From Phaeobacter gallaeciensis DSM 26640 (GTDB lineage Bacteria; Pseudomonadota; Alphaproteobacteria; Rhodobacterales; Rhodobacteraceae): a stretch of 64,000 nucleotides of DNA. Both the position numbers and the translations under genes were made by a program. The notes under the pieces are model-generated. The model saw only the letters and a program-made list of their open reading frames with translations, searched no databases and had not been told where the DNA came from. How positions within the stretch are numbered: the first letter of the stretch is position 1; each line of letters starts with the position of its first letter. The stretch covers positions 2,239,001-2,303,000 of the forward strand of contig NC_023137.1 of NCBI RefSeq assembly GCF_000511385.1, given 5' to 3'. Positions 26,886-53,946 of the stretch are shown one piece after another.

Positions 26886-26920
26886 GGGGGCCAGTTTGGG
26901 GGCCAGAGTGGGGGCCAAGC
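26886..26920 (+). repeat. Three 12-base GGGGGCCA repeats abutting the integrase start
   Basis: GGGGGCCA recurs at 26886, 26898 and 26910, a 12-base period, ending at the integrase ATG. The last G-run is the only candidate ribosome site. May be an arm-type or regulatory site, or simply a local expansion. Confidence 0.5.
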
Positions 26921-30621: not shown

Positions 30622-30698
30622 CTGCGCGTAGCCCAACAGGACAAGGCACGGAACTTCTATTTCTGAGATTGCGGGTTCGAATCCCGCCGCGAAGTCCA
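30622..30698 (+). tRNA. tRNA-Arg(UCU)-like gene, CCA encoded
   Basis: A cloverleaf can be drawn by hand. Acceptor CTGCGCG/CGCGAAG has six of seven pairs (G3-A70 mismatch); T8, A9; D-stem GCCC/AGGC with loop AACAGGACA containing A14, G18G19, A21; anticodon stem CGGAA/TTCTG with loop CTTCTAT (T33, anticodon TCT, A37); variable AGATT; T-arm GCGGG-TTCGAAT-CCCGC; discriminator T; then CCA. It should decode AGA/AGG. The mismatch and U73 are unusual for arginine, so it may be degenerate. Confidence 0.8.
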
Positions 30699-31731: not shown

Positions 31732-31907
31732 CCTTTGCGCTTGGCGAGGGCATATGACGCCTCAACCAGCGCGCCGATCAGCAGCGCGCACACTGCCACG
31801 ATATCGGGGTCTGCTGCCAGCTGCGCGCCGATCTGGTCCGAACCGAATAACAAGGCCCCCACGACATAGCGCAGGGCGATCCGGGCAAGCGGAGAGAAGT
31901 TCATCAT
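31719..31907 (-). CDS. Small holin-like membrane protein
   Basis: 62 residues from ATG 31907, which overlaps the amidase stop (ATGA); a longer frame reaches 31952 but is less likely. Two weakly hydrophobic helices (ARIALRYVVGALLFG and IVAVCALLIGALVEASYALA) and a basic C-terminus (KRKGW). Size, position between endolysin and spanins, and topology suggest a class II holin-like or accessory lysis protein; not proven. Confidence 0.55.
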   Translation of the reverse strand: MMNFSPLARIALRYVVGALLFGSDQIGAQLAADPDIVAVCALLIGALVEASYALAKRKGWHL

Positions 31908-32422
31908 TTGCGAAAACCTTTCAGCAGGGAATTGATCAGGGTGAGCCACCAAGGGCGGGCATTGCGCTTGCGCTGGACTTCATCCCACCAACCGGCCGCA
32001 TCAAATCCGGGGCATTGCGTTGCGGCTCCGGGCATATCCCGATGGCCCCGAACAACTGCGCCGGGGAAGCGTTCCAGCATCTTGTCGATAATCTCGATCA
32101 TTGCGCGCGTTTGCGCCGGGGTACGGCTGTCAAACCCGGTGTTCATCGCGGCCTTGCGGACCCCGCCTTCAAAGCAGATCCCAACGCTTATGCTGTTCTC
32201 GCCTTTGCTGTGGGCGCCTGCCTCAAACCGCCCCGGCTGGCTCATATCGCGGCCCATTTCGATTGAACCGCTCTTGCGGATATACCAGTGGTAGCCGATT
32301 TCACGGAACCCGCGCCGCTTGTGCATCCGGTCGATATCCTCAGCGGAAACATCGTCCTCGACCGCCGTAGCTGAATAATGGATCACGATATACTTGACCT
32401 GTCCGTCAGGCTTATATGACAT
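31904..32422 (-). CDS. Endolysin: N-acetylmuramoyl-L-alanine amidase (amidase_2, T7 lysozyme type)
   Basis: 172 residues. Zinc ligands of the amidase_2 fold: His15 in YIVIHYSAT, the His of GHRDMPG and the Cys of TQCPGFD; FREIGYHWYIRKSG carries the conserved tyrosine. Cleaves the amide between MurNAc and L-alanine. No signal peptide, so release needs a holin. A basic, tryptophan-bearing C-terminus (WWLTLINSLLKGFRK) could bind membrane. GGAG precedes the ATG. Confidence 0.93.
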   Translation of the reverse strand: MSYKPDGQVKYIVIHYSATAVEDDVSAEDIDRMHKRRGFREIGYHWYIRKSGSIEMGRDMSQPGRFEAGAHSKGENSISVGICFEGGVRKAAMNTGFDSRTPAQTRAMIEIIDKMLERFPGAVVRGHRDMPGAATQCPGFDAAGWWDEVQRKRNARPWWLTLINSLLKGFRK

Positions 32423-33263: not shown

Positions 33264-33671
33264 TTAGCGCAGCTCGCAGGCATAGGTTTGGCCTATAGTA
33301 TATTGAGGCCACGTATCTGGGTTAGGCCATACATCCCAATAGGTGCGCTGGCCCATAAAGACCAATCCGCTTAATGCATATGAAGTGCCATCGACGACAA
33401 ATGTCGTATAAGATGAAACCAGTGGCCTTACATCGCCTGAAAAGCTAAGCCTCGCATCATTAGTATGGGCACCACTCGTACGGCTGAGCTGCGCATGCAG
33501 CACAGCTCCCGGCACAGGCTCATTACTCAATGAGCCGTTATTTGACCTATTTATGAAATAGCCCGGCTCCCCGGGGTACGGCTCCCCCGCCGTCATGCTC
33601 CATGTCACGCCTCCCCCGCCTTGGTTCGCCGCCACATAAGCGCGCATGGCATTTGCAAAGAGGCTTCCCAT
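33264..33671 (-). CDS. Virion-associated protein, unknown, downstream of the spike gene
   Basis: 135 residues, Gly/Ser/Thr/Tyr-rich and predicted beta (FVVDGTSYALSGLVFMGQRTYWDVWPNPDTWPQYTIG). It begins at the last base of the tail spike gene. Composition suggests a tail-tip or fibre-associated chaperone/cap; not recognised. Confidence 0.55.
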   Translation of the reverse strand: MGSLFANAMRAYVAANQGGGGVTWSMTAGEPYPGEPGYFINRSNNGSLSNEPVPGAVLHAQLSRTSGAHTNDARLSFSGDVRPLVSSYTTFVVDGTSYALSGLVFMGQRTYWDVWPNPDTWPQYTIGQTYACELR

Positions 33672-35887
33672 TACGAAACCTCCAAGCCAACGGCATGGGT
33701 ATTAGAAGACCCAATCCTGTGGAAAGCGAAATCCAGCGTTGCAGTGCCGCTTGCGGGCTGACCGGACCCAGCCCATTTAACGCCACCGCCGGGGATAGTG
33801 AAATTGATCATCTGTGAGTTCGGCTCTGCTACAACTACCCGGACATCCTCAGATACAACCAATGCAGACAAATCAATTGTTAGCGTCCCGGTCAGAGGAC
33901 CGCCAGTAACATTCAGCCCTTGGCCTTTAGTCCGGTCCCACACCACGGTCCCAGAGGTATCATTCACCGAGTGCATCCGGGTGTAGTGTCCGATATCCGC
34001 CCCAGCGTTTGATGAAGTATCCCCGGGTGTACCATCGCGGAGGGAGCCATTTTGGGCGCGGAAAAGTTCAAGCTCCGCCGCATCTCCTGCCGCCCCTGTA
34101 TTCGTGCGCGGCTCAAGCACCAGCCCGCGCACCGGGTTCGCGGCATTGCCAAGTGTCCCCGCCGTTGTCGGCACGAGGTTGTTACCGCTCTCCGACCAGT
34201 TTGCCAAGCCAGAGCTGCCCCCATCCAGCGCTGACAGATCCACCGTCAGATCACCACCGACCGACCGTGTGAGCGTTAGAATGTTGGTGCTGCTGTTGAA
34301 AGAAACGCCAGTCACAACCCCGTCAGCTGACCCGCCACCGCCCACGGCATAGCTCTGAATGCCGACATACTTGCCGAGGAAGTCAACCCAAAGGAATTCC
34401 GTGATCTGGAACGCCCCGCCACCGATCCGGGTACTCCCCACGCAAAGTGAGTTGTTCACCACGTCGATGTATGTGCCGGCATCGGAGCTGAGACAGGCCA
34501 GCCAGAACCGGCGCGCTTCCATTTTCTCGACAGTCAAGGTGCAGGCATATCCGGCGGTGTTGACGTAGTAGACGCAGCTTTGTTGAGGGGTAAAGTCGTG
34601 CGGCTCGTCAGGCAAGCGAATGCACTCATCGACGCCCACAGGGTACTCCCCGGCAAAGGACGTGGCAGCATCGAGCAAGGACCGCATTGCGCGCGGGTCA
34701 GGCTCAAGAGCGACATTCACGATATCGCCATTGCGCATTGAATGGCTGTTGTTCACGTCCTGCGCCGCGCCATATGGCCCCTCAGGCCCGCCGGTACTGA
34801 CGAACTCGACCGGAACCCCGCGCAGCTCGTTGTCGCCGTTGCGGTTGTTGGCGGCATGGACACGATATTTCAGGGTTCGCGCGCCCGTGGTAGCATCCTT
34901 GTAGACTTGGCGGACCCAGATTGACCCCTCAAGGCTATTCAAGGTGCCGTCCAGATCAAGAGTGGTGACAGACGACCATGCGCCGCCGATGGGGTCAGTG
35001 GCGGAATGGATCTCAATATTGCGGTTCGCGCTGTTCTTGATGCACATGTACCACGTGTCGTCATCAGCCTGCGTAAGGTCAGGCTCAAGCATCGCAGTCG
35101 TGGTGGTGCCAACATTCATCGCGACCGGCGGGCCGAATGTCATCGCGTCGATATCAAGGCACTCAGCAATATATGGCCGGAACGTCGGGGACTGATTGCC
35201 GAACCCGTCAGTGTAATCGTCCTGCGTCCGAATGCTGATGGTCAGGTAGACCTTATCCCCGATGTTGTGGAAGCGCGGACCCCACAGCAGATCCGCCGCG
35301 CGGGTGGCCCCTGGTAGTGTGGTGCCGCGCACCCCGCCGAAAGCGTTGCTGCCTTGGAGCTGGCATTTGATGTTCACCGGGGTGCCAAGAGCGCTCAGGA
35401 CATAGACCGAAAAGTCGTATTCCAGGCCCTCGCCTGCGGTTACGGGCATCAACCACGGGTCCATGCGGCGACGGCGCGCCCAGAATGGTTGACTGTCACG
35501 CCCGCCGGTTGTCGCATCGCCCGCGCCCCGGATAACAGGGAACTGGTTCAACCGCTTGAGGGTTACGCCATCATTGGACAGGTGAAAATACTGCGCGGTC
35601 ACATCTTGGTTTTTGAAGGCAGACATCAGAAACAGGTTGTCAAGCTGCCCGCCTTCGCGCCGCAGACCGTCAACGCCGAACCCCCACAGTGCGCTGTCCA
35701 GACCTGTTGCGGTACTGTCCACGGTATAGCCCGCACCATTACAGAACACCCGCTGACCGTCGCGTAGGTCGCCGCGCTGGATCGCGCCGCGCAGCTTGTA
35801 GATATCGGAAAACTCAGGGCCGATCTCGAACGCCTTAACCCCGCCGATGGTGGTAAGATCTGGGTCAGCTTCAGACGCATCGGTCAC
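33671..35887 (-). CDS. Tail spike/fibre, distal part; separated from proximal part by an in-frame amber codon
   Basis: 738 residues as called from GTG 35887. Upstream of that GTG the same frame stays protein-like back to a TAG at 35909-35911, and continues beyond it as the gene at 35909-36259. There is no good ribosome site for a fresh start. The body contains a beta-propeller-like region with repeated aromatic-Asp motifs (about 100-420) and Gly/Ser/Thr-rich C-terminal beta structure (SFNSSTNILTLTRSVGGDLTVDL). Probably the receptor-binding or glycan-depolymerising spike. Enzyme class cannot be assigned. Confidence 0.7.
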   Translation of the reverse strand: MTDASEADPDLTTIGGVKAFEIGPEFSDIYKLRGAIQRGDLRDGQRVFCNGAGYTVDSTATGLDSALWGFGVDGLRREGGQLDNLFLMSAFKNQDVTAQYFHLSNDGVTLKRLNQFPVIRGAGDATTGGRDSQPFWARRRRMDPWLMPVTAGEGLEYDFSVYVLSALGTPVNIKCQLQGSNAFGGVRGTTLPGATRAADLLWGPRFHNIGDKVYLTISIRTQDDYTDGFGNQSPTFRPYIAECLDIDAMTFGPPVAMNVGTTTTAMLEPDLTQADDDTWYMCIKNSANRNIEIHSATDPIGGAWSSVTTLDLDGTLNSLEGSIWVRQVYKDATTGARTLKYRVHAANNRNGDNELRGVPVEFVSTGGPEGPYGAAQDVNNSHSMRNGDIVNVALEPDPRAMRSLLDAATSFAGEYPVGVDECIRLPDEPHDFTPQQSCVYYVNTAGYACTLTVEKMEARRFWLACLSSDAGTYIDVVNNSLCVGSTRIGGGAFQITEFLWVDFLGKYVGIQSYAVGGGGSADGVVTGVSFNSSTNILTLTRSVGGDLTVDLSALDGGSSGLANWSESGNNLVPTTAGTLGNAANPVRGLVLEPRTNTGAAGDAAELELFRAQNGSLRDGTPGDTSSNAGADIGHYTRMHSVNDTSGTVVWDRTKGQGLNVTGGPLTGTLTIDLSALVVSEDVRVVVAEPNSQMINFTIPGGGVKWAGSGQPASGTATLDFAFHRIGSSNTHAVGLEVS

Positions 35888-35908
35888 GATGTACCGGGTG
35901 TTTTCCGT

Positions 35909-36259
35909 CTAAGCGCTGAGAATAGTCCCGACCGGGTAACTATCTGTCGCGTCCGCGCGCAAATCGGTCCCGTTGGCGAATGACTTGATATCGCCCGCGC
36001 CGCCGGTTCCATCAGGCAGGGTCACGGTCGCAAGGTTCCCGGTCAGCTCCACATCGCCGCCAACAACATCGATCGCTGTCGCGGTGCCCAGCGGGTTGCC
36101 ATCGCTGCGGATCGCAACGCCCTGAACCGCCGACGTGCTGAGAGCGCTGGCCGGAGCGCGGGAGATATCGCCATCAACCTCGACCAGAACAGTGTTCTCA
36201 GGGCCAAGCGTATCGACCTGTGGGAGTTCGTTCGCGTTTTTCTGCGGTGTTCTTGTCAT
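35909..36259 (-). CDS. Tail spike/fibre, proximal part ending at an in-frame amber codon
   Basis: 116 residues ending ...SYPVGTILSA then TAG. The sequence after the stop, in the same frame, reads TENTRYIVTDASEADPDLTT. In phage fibre proteins a run such as PxGTIL...(R)TRxExxxYxV...DADLTTxGGVK is usually continuous, so this looks like one gene cut by a nonsense codon, or one with programmed readthrough. Gly/Val/Thr-rich, as in fibre shafts. Confidence 0.65.
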   Translation of the reverse strand: MTRTPQKNANELPQVDTLGPENTVLVEVDGDISRAPASALSTSAVQGVAIRSDGNPLGTATAIDVVGGDVELTGNLATVTLPDGTGGAGDIKSFANGTDLRADATDSYPVGTILSA

Positions 36260-36269
36260 GCTCTATCCC

Positions 36270-37106
36270 TCAGCGAAGCTCAGACCAGTTTGTAAAGCCG
36301 CCGGTTGTCCGGTAGAAATGATCCGGCGGAATTGTTACGGAGGCTGCGGTCTCAAACGAACCCGGCGCGCCAAGGGTGGCGATGGGCACCCATGCGCTCC
36401 CGTCAGCTGAAACCTGCGCGATGCCACCGCTGGAGCCGTGGACCATCCACTGAATGGGGCGACCAGCGTCGTTCTGATAGGAGATGTTGGCGGTGCGTGA
36501 TCCGTTCAGGTTCTGCCAATACTGCCCCACCCCCAGCGCTTTACCGTCCACCTCAGTGCCCACAAACGCCTTGACCGACTGCTGGCTGGGCGCGGCGGTT
36601 GCGCTGTCGCTTGCCATGTCGTCCTCATCGAGAAAACCGCGTGTGGCCACAGCCCCCAGGCCAAGGGTGGTTCGGGCCGACGCCGCATCAGACGCTGCAA
36701 TGAGCGACTTCCCATAGGCCGTTACCGCGTTCCAAAGCCCGGTAAGGTTCGCAATCGCCGCCTGCACGTTGGTCGCGCTGTTCCCGGTGATCGGGGTGAA
36801 CTTCACCAGCCCCGCGCCCGTCTCATCCGTGGTGGTGACGTGCCAATTGTCCGACGGGAACCCCGGCAAGCTGGTGTTCGTTTCAGGATCGCGGATATCC
36901 AGTTTCAGAACCTTGTCCGTGAACACGGCAGTGAAGTTGCCCGCGCTGTCCGCCACCAGAGGCGGAGGGACAACAACCGTTCCGGCCTTGTCCGAATAGA
37001 CCGTCAGAGGGGAAACCGTGCCCTCCTTGTAGAAATACGCCATTGCGCCGGGGACAATGTTGCCATTGCCATCCAGCGCACGGGGCATAAGAACCCTGTT
37101 CGCCAT
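36270..37106 (-). CDS. Tail fibre/spike adaptor protein
   Basis: 278 residues. The N-terminus (PRALDGNGNIVPGAMAYFYKEGTVSPLTVYSDKAGT... ) is the conserved head-binding type seen at the start of many podovirus and siphovirus tail fibres. The C-terminal part (ISYQNDAGRPIQWMVHGSSGGIAQVSADG... FYRTTGGFTNWSELR) is a small beta domain. Probably attaches the spike to the tail hub. Confidence 0.75.
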   Translation of the reverse strand: MANRVLMPRALDGNGNIVPGAMAYFYKEGTVSPLTVYSDKAGTVVVPPPLVADSAGNFTAVFTDKVLKLDIRDPETNTSLPGFPSDNWHVTTTDETGAGLVKFTPITGNSATNVQAAIANLTGLWNAVTAYGKSLIAASDAASARTTLGLGAVATRGFLDEDDMASDSATAAPSQQSVKAFVGTEVDGKALGVGQYWQNLNGSRTANISYQNDAGRPIQWMVHGSSGGIAQVSADGSAWVPIATLGAPGSFETAASVTIPPDHFYRTTGGFTNWSELR

Positions 37107-37555: not shown

Positions 37556-38070
37556 GCTGCGCCTCCTTTCGGAGGGAAAGGGCCACCAGATTTTGTAGTT
37601 TGCGCCACCGTGGCGCAAACCTCCCCGAACTCGGAAAGAGCGCTAAGATGCCGGTCGATTGCGGAGCGTAACTTGCGGCGGGAATAATAGACCTTCTCTT
37701 TAGCTTTCATCTTAGCAGTGTATTCACCCTTGGTGGAAGCCATCATCGCCTCATAGTCTGCGCTTCCAGTTTCGATACTGTCCAATCCGTTCATGCGGCG
37801 AAAGTCTGCATACGCCTCTGTCAACGTGCGGCTTTCGTTGTTCGCCGCAATCTCAGCACGGCGCAATTGGATAGCGAGGTCGGCAATCAAAACCGCATCA
37901 GCGGTCTTTTCGCCCTCAGTCTTTTCGGCAATCCTCGCTGGAGGATGGGGAAAGCCCAGTTTTTCTGACAGCTGCCGAGCGGCCAAAATGCCAAAGGTTT
38001 CCCGGCACTCATCGACCATAGCAGTTTTCCAGCCCATTTCTTCGGCGGTCCATTCGCTGAACGGCTTCAT
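37552..38070 (-). CDS. Hypothetical phage protein, helical
   Basis: 172 residues, charged and helical throughout (LAIQLRRAEIAANNESRTLTEAYADF, AKMKAKEKVYYSRRKLRSAIDRHL). Four-base overlaps with genes on both sides (ATGA) show co-translation with the KilA-N gene. Not recognised. Confidence 0.6.
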   Translation of the reverse strand: MKPFSEWTAEEMGWKTAMVDECRETFGILAARQLSEKLGFPHPPARIAEKTEGEKTADAVLIADLAIQLRRAEIAANNESRTLTEAYADFRRMNGLDSIETGSADYEAMMASTKGEYTAKMKAKEKVYYSRRKLRSAIDRHLSALSEFGEVCATVAQTTKSGGPFPPKGGAA

Positions 38071-38840
38071 TTCGCACCCCCGATCAGCTTGAGTTTGCTT
38101 TGACCCATCCGCTCCGAAGCATAGACCTTTGCTTTATGCAGAAGGCCGTTTTTCATGCAGGCGGACGCTTTATCCGGGTCGAACATCCGCGCCCCACGCA
38201 TCCCAAGCTGGGCCGTGCGGCAGTGCTCGATCTGGCAGCCCATTTCTGCAAGGCGGTTGCCGAGCCAGCGCGGCGCGTTCTTGAGCGGCGGCAGGTTGTG
38301 AGAACTCCAGATTTGACCAGAGGTCTTTCCCTCGACGTAAACTCCCGGTGATGACGGCTGAACAACAGTGGCGATTGCGGTAACTGCTGTGGCCATTGTG
38401 GCGATCTGCCCCTCAATCGCGGTGACCTTGCCCGAAAGCATCCGAGCAATGCCATTGGTTCGGACGATCTGCTCCAAAACGTCCGCCGGAAGGTGCTGCA
38501 CTACACCCTCCATTTTCTCGCGAATTGCCTGGTTCCCCCACATATGAAAATCATGGCTCAGATACTTGGCGTAGGCGATCCCGATCTGCCAGTGCGCGAA
38601 AGTGCCCCCGTTCTTCCCCCGCTTGGAGGTCAAAACCTGTGCCTCACTCAGGTTTTGGGAAACGGCGACAGCGTCAATGAAGGCCCTACCCTCGAAGCGC
38701 GCCCAATTGTACGGCTCCTTGTTCTCAGTCGAGCCTGCCGCCTTCCACATATCGGTGAGCGATAGCATTTCGCCCTTCTCACGAATTGCCACGCCACCGT
38801 AGACAAGTTCGCTTCCAGTGATTATCTCATGCTTAGTCAT
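38067..38840 (-). CDS. KilA-N domain protein, antirepressor-like
   Basis: 257 residues. Residues 10-105 are a KilA-N DNA-binding domain (ISLTDMWKAAG-like: LSLTDMWKAAGSTENKEPYNW... GGTFAHWQIGIAYAKYLSHDFHMWGN). The C-terminal part is a separate basic domain. KilA-N proteins of temperate phages often act as antirepressors. It is downstream of the Arc-like gene, as Ant is behind Arc in the P22 immI region. Confidence 0.82.
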   Translation of the reverse strand: MTKHEIITGSELVYGGVAIREKGEMLSLTDMWKAAGSTENKEPYNWARFEGRAFIDAVAVSQNLSEAQVLTSKRGKNGGTFAHWQIGIAYAKYLSHDFHMWGNQAIREKMEGVVQHLPADVLEQIVRTNGIARMLSGKVTAIEGQIATMATAVTAIATVVQPSSPGVYVEGKTSGQIWSSHNLPPLKNAPRWLGNRLAEMGCQIEHCRTAQLGMRGARMFDPDKASACMKNGLLHKAKVYASERMGQSKLKLIGGAK

Positions 38841-41377: not shown

Positions 41378-42637
41378 TCACTCCAAGCCATATTTGCGGA
41401 ATAGCTCGTCATCTGTTGCTGGGGCCGCACGGGATTGCTCGTAAATCTTGTCACCAGCGCTCTTGCCGTGGATGACCCTCAGCAGTGTTTGCTCATAGTT
41501 CTCCAAATCCCTTTGGAAATTCGGGCTGGTCGGGTCGAGCGCGCCAGACATATCTTGCAAGAGCTTCAGTTCTTTCTCGGTGACGTTGCCGAGCGCGCCG
41601 CCTGTTTTAGACTGCCGACGCATTGCATTCAGGTTCTCAGCGGCTGCCAGCGACTTAAGGGTGTCGGTTTGGCGGATAACCTCTGCGCTATCGGTCCATG
41701 GCGCAAGCGCAGCGATGCGCGTACCAGCAGGCCCGAAGTCTTGATTGGACGCCGCTTCACGCGCAAGTGTGGCGGCATTCAAAACAATATCCGTTGCGGT
41801 GTCCTTGGCGCTTTGCTGGGCCGCCTCCTGAATGCTTGTGTCCTTTGGGCCGCCAGCAACCGGCGCAGCCATCGGGCGCCCTTGATCGTCCAGCTTGATC
41901 GTGCCGTCTGGATTGTACAGGTAGGTGAAACCCTCTCCTAGCTTGCTAAGGCCAGGGACAGGGTTTTGGGAGCCGCTGCTGACATTGACGGTAGTCTGCG
42001 GACTGTTGCTAAGCGGGGTGCCTTCCGGCAGCAGCCCAGCAGCGATATCAGCCTGAACCTTGCCGGGGCCTGACATGGGCTTCGGCGGTGCATTCAGTTC
42101 CTGAACCGCTTTCAGCTTGTCCAGAACATCGCCATACATCGCGGCAACTGTCGGGAATTCATCAAGGCTTTGCAATGGCTCCTCGCCAACGGTGCCCAGA
42201 AGCTGGTTCAGGCCGTCAAGATCCCCACGCTGATAGAACTGCATCCCCTGAGCGATACCCTGTTCCACCCGCGCCGCCTCTGCGGCCCGTTCTTGTGCGC
42301 CAAGAGACGCGGCGTAGGCTTCGGCCTCTCGGCCCATTGCAATCCGGCGCTGTTCCATCATCTGCGCGCGCGACTGCATGTTCTGCTGTGCGCTCTGCAT
42401 CTGAACCGCCTGCATCGGGTCCAGCTGGGCCAGCGCATTCAACGCCTGCGGCTGACCAGCTGCGATATCCGCGCCCTGCGTCTGGAAGAGGTTGCGCAGC
42501 GCGTTCTGGCTCTGCACTTGGTTCGCCTGCTTGCGCGCTTGGTGGGTCTGCTGCGCTGCCATCGCAGACTGAGACAGCGCGTTCACGATATCCGGCTGTT
42601 GGGCCATAAGGGGCAAGCGGGTGTCGAGTTGGGCCAT
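41378..42637 (-). CDS. Virion/ejection protein, Gln/Ala-rich
   Basis: 419 residues. The N-terminal third is a Gln/Ala-rich helix (SAMAAQQTHQARKQANQVQSQNALRNLF, MQSAQQNMQSRAQMMEQRR); the rest is mixed. Overlaps the following gene at TGA/ATG. Composition and position suit an ejected internal virion protein delivered with the DNA. Confidence 0.62.
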   Translation of the reverse strand: MAQLDTRLPLMAQQPDIVNALSQSAMAAQQTHQARKQANQVQSQNALRNLFQTQGADIAAGQPQALNALAQLDPMQAVQMQSAQQNMQSRAQMMEQRRIAMGREAEAYAASLGAQERAAEAARVEQGIAQGMQFYQRGDLDGLNQLLGTVGEEPLQSLDEFPTVAAMYGDVLDKLKAVQELNAPPKPMSGPGKVQADIAAGLLPEGTPLSNSPQTTVNVSSGSQNPVPGLSKLGEGFTYLYNPDGTIKLDDQGRPMAAPVAGGPKDTSIQEAAQQSAKDTATDIVLNAATLAREAASNQDFGPAGTRIAALAPWTDSAEVIRQTDTLKSLAAAENLNAMRRQSKTGGALGNVTEKELKLLQDMSGALDPTSPNFQRDLENYEQTLLRVIHGKSAGDKIYEQSRAAPATDDELFRKYGLE

Positions 42638-42646
42638 GTGCTGTCC

Positions 42647-43240
42647 TCAGGTAAATTTGAGTTTGGCGCGCGGTGCGACCTGCGTCAGGAAGTTGCGCGG
42701 GTCAATCTGCTGCATTTGCGGCGGCTGCGGTGGCTGTTGCTGGGCGAGGGCATTCACAGGCGCGCCCTGCTGTCCCATAGGGGCCGAAAGCGCGTTCTGC
42801 GGGGGCTGCCCCCCGAAATCACCGCCAGCCAGCGCGTTGGCCGCCTCTATGCGCCGGTCAAGGTGCGGAATACCGGGGCGGAGGAACTGCTGGCTGTAGA
42901 TCCGCGCCGCCTCTGCCGGGGTTTGGGCTTGGGAAAGTGCCGTCCCCGCCCGTTTCTCGGTGTTTGCCAGCTCCCACATCGTGAAATCAAGCTGAGCGTC
43001 CAGATCGTCCAGCGCCACCCCGCGATCTGCGGCGTAGCTCTCGAACTGACGGCGGCGCGGCCCGGTCCACTGGTTCAGCCCATAGCCGCCACGCGATCCG
43101 GGCACAACGGGGGCATATTCGTTCACGCCGGTCTGAAACCCGTCGCTCTCTATCTGCATATTCCCGGCAACACCGATTGCGATATGGCGCGGCAACCCCC
43201 GCGCGATCAGACCGTTGACGACTTCCTGAGCGCTTGCCAT
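42647..43240 (-). CDS. Virion-associated tail lysozyme
   Basis: 197 residues. Residues 1-130 are a phage tail lysozyme domain (LPRHIAIGVAGNMQIESDGF... GGYGLNQWTGPRRRQFESYA), with the catalytic glutamate expected in QIESDGF. The C-terminus is a Gln/Pro-rich tail. Would open peptidoglycan locally during DNA ejection, unlike the amidase at 31904, which acts at lysis. Confidence 0.85.
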   Translation of the reverse strand: MASAQEVVNGLIARGLPRHIAIGVAGNMQIESDGFQTGVNEYAPVVPGSRGGYGLNQWTGPRRRQFESYAADRGVALDDLDAQLDFTMWELANTEKRAGTALSQAQTPAEAARIYSQQFLRPGIPHLDRRIEAANALAGGDFGGQPPQNALSAPMGQQGAPVNALAQQQPPQPPQMQQIDPRNFLTQVAPRAKLKFT

Positions 43241-53083: not shown

Positions 53084-53674
53084 TCACCCGGCAACCCTTT
53101 GCACAAGCCCTTGCGTATCTTCACCAGATACACGCCGGTCACCAAATGTCATCTCATACCAAACCCGACCGGCCTCAACTTTTTTCACATCCACAAAGAA
53201 GCCCTTGAACGGCCCGCCGATCAGTTTGGCCGGCTCTCCCGCGCACGGCATGAATGCGCGGATGCGCTCTTGCTCTTGCCGCTCCTGTTCAGTCGGCAGG
53301 CCCATTGCTTGATCAACGTCGTCTTGCGTCAACCGTACAGGCTTGTCAGCTATCGAGAACACGCCAGACACGATGCGGCGCTGACGCATAACGTCCCAAT
53401 GGGGTTCGTAACTGAACTTGGCATAGATGATGCGGGCTATCATCGGCGACACGAATTCCCTATCCTGGCCGTTCACCTTGCGGAACTTGGATACCTCCGG
53501 GTAAACGACCTGCACCCCCGCGCCATCAAGGACACGCCCTAGCACCTCCTTGGTGTGGGCCTCTTTCTGCGGGGCGGTGATAAGGGCATGCCATACGGGT
53601 TCGCAGGGCTTGCCCACGATGCCGCGTGATGACCGGAACGGCCACGGGTCGCCTTCTTTCAGGTTTAGCGTCAT
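53084..53674 (-). CDS. NusG-like transcription factor (candidate phage antiterminator)
   Basis: 196 residues from ATG 53674, which overlaps the preceding stop (ATGA). WHALITAPQKEAHTKEVLGRVLDGAGVQVVYPEV is an NGN-type start (NusG: W-Y-x-x-x-x-x-x-G-x-E). The C-terminal GEPAKLIGGPFKGFFVDVKKVEAGRVWYEMTFGDRRV is a KOW domain. In NusG paralogues NGN binds RNA polymerase and KOW binds ribosome, Rho or RNA. Last gene of the early-left operon, next to the late region: the place of a Q-like late activator. Confidence 0.78.
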   Translation of the reverse strand: MTLNLKEGDPWPFRSSRGIVGKPCEPVWHALITAPQKEAHTKEVLGRVLDGAGVQVVYPEVSKFRKVNGQDREFVSPMIARIIYAKFSYEPHWDVMRQRRIVSGVFSIADKPVRLTQDDVDQAMGLPTEQERQEQERIRAFMPCAGEPAKLIGGPFKGFFVDVKKVEAGRVWYEMTFGDRRVSGEDTQGLVQRVAG

Positions 53675-53946
53675 TGGCGCGGCCCCATCAGCCGTGAAAT
53701 CACGCGATTTGGCCAGCAGAAAAACCGGCAGAGAACCACCCAAGCGCGAGACAGCCCCGCATCAGCGACTGCATTAGGTATTTCGGCATATATCCAATAG
53801 ACCTCAATACCGTCGTCCTCCAAATTACGGCCTAGCCCTAGGTCAACCTTAACGCACCACTCATGGCGATGGCCTCTGACCCTTATCTCTCCATGCGCTG
53901 GATAGTAATCAAGCTGGCTGAATTTCATTGGCTTAACTCTCGTCAT
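53671..53946 (-). CDS. Small phage protein, unknown
   Basis: 91 residues, with ATGA overlaps to both neighbours. KFSQLDYYPAHGEIRVRGHRHEWCVKVDLGLGRN is beta-like, then a more hydrophobic end (AWVVLCRFFCWPNRVISRL). Not recognised. Co-translated with the NusG-like gene. Confidence 0.6.
   Translation of the reverse strand: MTRVKPMKFSQLDYYPAHGEIRVRGHRHEWCVKVDLGLGRNLEDDGIEVYWIYAEIPNAVADAGLSRAWVVLCRFFCWPNRVISRLMGPRQ

Follow-up and report, generated by a model that had tools for sequence, protein, structure and literature searches.

An in-frame amber codon splits the predicted tail-spike gene of a P22-like prophage of Phaeobacter gallaeciensis, most likely by a recent nonsense mutation

The window analyzed here, 64,000 nucleotides of the chromosome of Phaeobacter gallaeciensis DSM 26640 (contig NC_023137.1, positions 2,239,001 to 2,303,000), contains a prophage whose predicted tail-spike gene is divided by a premature TAG codon. 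As outlined in Table 1, the first piece of this gene begins with an ATG and is terminated by the TAG, behind which the frame stays open for another 745 codons, i.e. seven codons up to a GTG and from there, counted as 738 amino acids, on to a TAA. Since the ATG and the GTG lie 372 bases apart, the 116- and the 738-codon frames share the same phase. A preceding sequence-only reading had described two frames of one phase parted by a TAG and a frame leading straight on behind it, and both statements were borne out. When the bases of the second piece were shuffled (n = 2,000), the longest stop-free run in a single frame reached 295 codons. Furthermore, the ratio of non-synonymous to synonymous substitution rates (dN/dS) was determined for each piece separately against the viral relatives L002-L005. 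It ranged from 0.017 to 0.086 in the first piece and, over the initial 500 codons (493 aligned in the case of L005), from 0.040 to 0.146 in the second. These low values indicate that both pieces are genuine coding sequence under strong purifying selection. The in-phase split was thereby confirmed not to be a product of chance.

Table 1 Features of the split gene and of two further prophage genes (positions within the window).
Feature	Position	Strand	Remark
First piece of the predicted tail-spike gene, 116 codons	35909..36259	-	96-99% identical in L002-L005
Premature TAG stop	35909..35911	-	sense codon there in 5/5 relatives
Seven in-phase codons from the stop to the GTG	35888..35908	-	
GTG, possible restart codon	35885..35887	-	other than GTG in 2/5 relatives
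Second piece, 738 codons, predicted GH43-type five-bladed propeller and C-terminal part	33671..35887	-	
Codon 510 of the second piece	34358..34360	-	conservative missense, sole further difference from the sibling prophage
P22-like portal protein, marks the phage type	48848..50839	-	PF16510, E 2.3e-192
Upstream neighbor, 278 amino acids, weak tail-fibre family matches	36270..37106	-	unbroken in L002-L005, 93-95% identity

Five viral records (L001-L005) were found with the second piece, and a pattern spanning the site, in which the differing base was left open, returned the same five and none beyond. In all five the gene is a single frame of 861-864 residues from stop to stop, in which one and the same sense codon takes the place of the TAG, a count which takes in no stop-bearing siblings, as the viral search may omit records very near the genome of the window. 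Eight of the ten close protein relatives (P0002-P0011) span the site and carry a residue there, though not the identical one in all cases, and the other two are fragments starting downstream of it. Homologues with an amino acid at the TAG, which the earlier reading had named as support for one gene, were thus present among the viral records as well as among the proteins. The proteins spanning the site are 51-95% identical to the second piece. The intact Phaeobacter prophage spikes (L001-L005; P0002, P0003, P0006-P0011) possess the same body as the second piece and none of them is broken at the stop position of the window; those of L001-L005 also share its first piece. P0003, P0009 and P0010 combine this body with a different N-terminal part, as is usual for spikes with their modular make-up. 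Searching the genus returned the window's own genome only (1/7), and the family search gave one match in 394 for the first piece and three in 394, two of them weak, for the second. No further copies were found in a collection of genome contigs. In a phage collection the first piece had no match, and the second matched two records, both from a single distant phage; the plasmid search yielded one distant record and the sequence search of solved structures one weak match. Titles and abstract openings of the literature found by topic searches do not mention the stop.

At 2 of 38,701 bases the window departs from IMGVR_UViG_2814123091_000003, its nearest record. The first of these differences falls inside the stop codon, the second in codon 510 of the 738-codon piece. 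By this comparison the stop amounts to a point change by which two nearly identical prophages differ, and with respect to the sense codon common to the five viral records the copy in the window most simply represents the derived state. At codon 510, nine of 13 other aligned proteins carry the residue of the sibling, and the residue of the window recurs in one distant protein. The spike gene, with 2,589 bases, makes up 6.7% of the element, yet holds both differences, for which the probability by chance, computed post hoc, is about 0.0045. Such a concentration hints at relaxed or changed selection in this gene and would fit a relaxation after the break, although two changes are too few to prove it.

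For the second piece, structure prediction suggested a GH43-type five-bladed propeller fold, which would fit a polysaccharide-binding spike. The first piece, whose fold was not predictable (predicted local distance difference test score, pLDDT, of 31.5), is likely the virion anchor, as its position implies. The tailspike of P22 is a beta-helix, and in this respect the fold predicted for the window, a propeller, differs from it. What the two share is the phage type and the position occupied by a protein that binds the receptor and cleaves sugar; P22-like phages are described as carrying such a protein at the spike place (PMC3741392).

With good confidence we conclude that the TAG splits a predicted tail-spike gene in a P22-like prophage and that it is most likely a recent nonsense mutation, which would deprive the phage of a functional spike for receptor binding. 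The relatives are unbroken at the site and the stop is one point change away from a near-identical intact copy, as is characteristic of inactivation by a nonsense codon. Translation would end after 116 residues, and the resulting fragment, if stable, would carry no receptor-binding domain, while little or none of the 738-residue part would be produced. Upon induction, particles would presumably still assemble and package DNA and would adsorb poorly, a defect which we infer from the broken gene; low-level leakage or restart is possible. Loss of the spike should cost the host little as long as the prophage is passed on within the chromosome, so that the broken gene could persist. Amber mutants are known for P22 gene 9 (tailspike). 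In analogy, the structural-gene ambers of P22 are late-gene stops in a P22-like phage by which a virion part is removed, but they are laboratory mutants of another gene, whereas the window holds a natural prophage with a stop in a spike-like gene. For the needle gene of P22, an amber mutant with a null phenotype is reported (PMC3741392). On the level of the DNA the change is a young nonsense mutation, its functional part is what we infer, and as a whole it would be ordinary prophage gene decay. It is a long shot that spike loss is even selected in lysogens, so that near-clonal Phaeobacter would share one prophage whose spike is either off or on, and the broken copy would be domesticated, releasing DNA-filled particles which cannot infect.

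Several observations weigh against the nonsense-mutation interpretation. With their poor alignment around the site, the three distant proteins P0012-P0014 are uninformative. The role as a spike rests on the predicted fold together with a Pfam score below the cut-off (PF04616, GH43, 19.3 bits versus 32.2). The entries P0001 and P0015 have differing member counts, four for the first piece and two for the second, from which no number of strains is claimed. The ribosome site of the GTG, scored as a simple duplex, reaches -3.3 to -3.5 kcal/mol and is no worse than three of the 12 neighboring starts tested; the two values differ since one of them was scored with a shift of a single base. Finally, tRNA-Tyr was missed in the tRNA search even at a looser limit, which added one weak partial match, and a suppressor is therefore possible.

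Errors of 454 sequencing are mainly insertions and deletions in base runs, whereas the TAG is a substitution, and it is improbable that a sequencing or assembly error feigns the stop in a gene that the strain actually carries intact. Such an error would be in line with the origin of the genome from 454 reads at 22-fold coverage (PMC4148982) and with the sense codon which the nearest relative has at the site. Against it, the protein collection lists four contigs for the 116-residue form, the longest of which has 3,776,904 bases versus 3,776,653 for the chromosome of the window; as these lengths differ, the split gene seems to be present in one or more assemblies besides that of the window. Moreover, 405 single nucleotide polymorphisms are reported among five aquaculture strains (PMC5583230), which makes a polymorphic stop in this clade plausible.

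We consider it very unlikely that translation restarts at the GTG, which is in phase and seven codons past the stop, and delivers the 738-residue part as an independent protein, unanchored but functional to some degree. The GTG is absent in two of five relatives, and 11 of 42 other start-like codons within the second piece score better. In addition, a restarted protein would be missing the first piece, a part retained by the relatives with 96-99% identity. The sequence-only reading had seen no good ribosome site here, which is a fair description next to the -5.8 kcal/mol of the first-piece ATG; the argument is not decisive, as the neighboring starts with no better sites demonstrate.

The least probable of these explanations is amber readthrough, programmed or tolerated, by which some full-length spike would be produced. 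It would account for the continuation of the frame over 745 codons and for the fact that just one further difference has accumulated, i.e. that the second part has not yet decayed. The stop is, however, present in none of the five relatives, indicating that no recoding signal was kept by selection, and a CTA anticodon was absent among the 52 tRNA genes found, as read by ARAGORN (59 are counted in PMC4148982). Because the search missed tRNA-Tyr, the absence of a suppressor tRNA is likely and not complete. The prophage tRNA at 30622-30698 is a tRNA-Arg(tct), in agreement with the earlier assignment of an AGA-reading, non-suppressing tRNA, and the single genome match of a short anticodon-loop pattern coincides with no tRNA. 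From the pair of explanations offered beforehand, the nonsense mutation stands by virtue of the unbroken viral and protein relatives, while readthrough finds neither a relative with the stop nor, among the 52 tRNA genes, one for UAG. Amber recoding of the whole phage was rejected, given a prophage without a suppressor tRNA and relatives without the stop. The single frame in all five relatives and the missing GTG in two of them speak against two separate genes; homologues in which the parts are always separate genes, which would have spoken for this arrangement, did not occur among the relatives.

The strain, Phaeobacter gallaeciensis CIP 105210T according to PMC4148982, originates from scallop rearing, and its genome comprises 4,540,155 bases on eight contigs. 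In the prophage table of that publication the element is region 4 (2,265,763-2,305,412, rated 'incomplete' by PHAST), which corresponds to the window from 26763 onwards. It encodes an integrase, a large terminase, a P22-type portal, scaffold, coat, head-tail adaptor, head-closure and ejection proteins, and the portal together with the terminase, scaffold, coat and ejection genes identifies it, on the basis of gene content, as a P22-like podovirus. A Podoviridae prophage is reported for all five aquaculture strains of the species (PMC5583230) and is probably this element. Near the integrase and beside a tRNA-Leu(taa), a 21-base direct repeat was found at 26897-26917 and 66347-66367 (the second copy beyond the window, in L019), likely representing the prophage attachment repeats. 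An endolysin-type amidase is encoded at 31904-32422 (minus strand; PF01510, phrog_822); as a guess, it may be Gal_02239, listed in PMC4148982 as a phage 'moron' negative regulator of beta-lactamase expression. Also on the minus strand, a phage gene encoding a NusG transcription-factor domain (53084-53743; PF02357, E 2.2e-7) lies near the packaging genes, and a KilA-N domain protein (38067-38840; PF04383) is inserted among the tail genes. A second in-phase pair at 41378-43240 (minus strand) consists of 197 amino acids ending in a TGA at 42647 and 419 amino acids at 41378-42637, and both members match phrog_24864, a profile joining the two parts in one family. As a second split this pair was rejected: the two look like ordinary genes, as the second has an ATG of its own whose site scores -5.6 and as a short gap lies between the two matches in G400 as well.

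The choice between a broken gene and recoding is settled in favor of an ordinary broken gene. If the spike is indeed lost, this strain would harbor a natural phage which is perhaps still inducible but unable to re-infect, with an intact near-twin for comparison.
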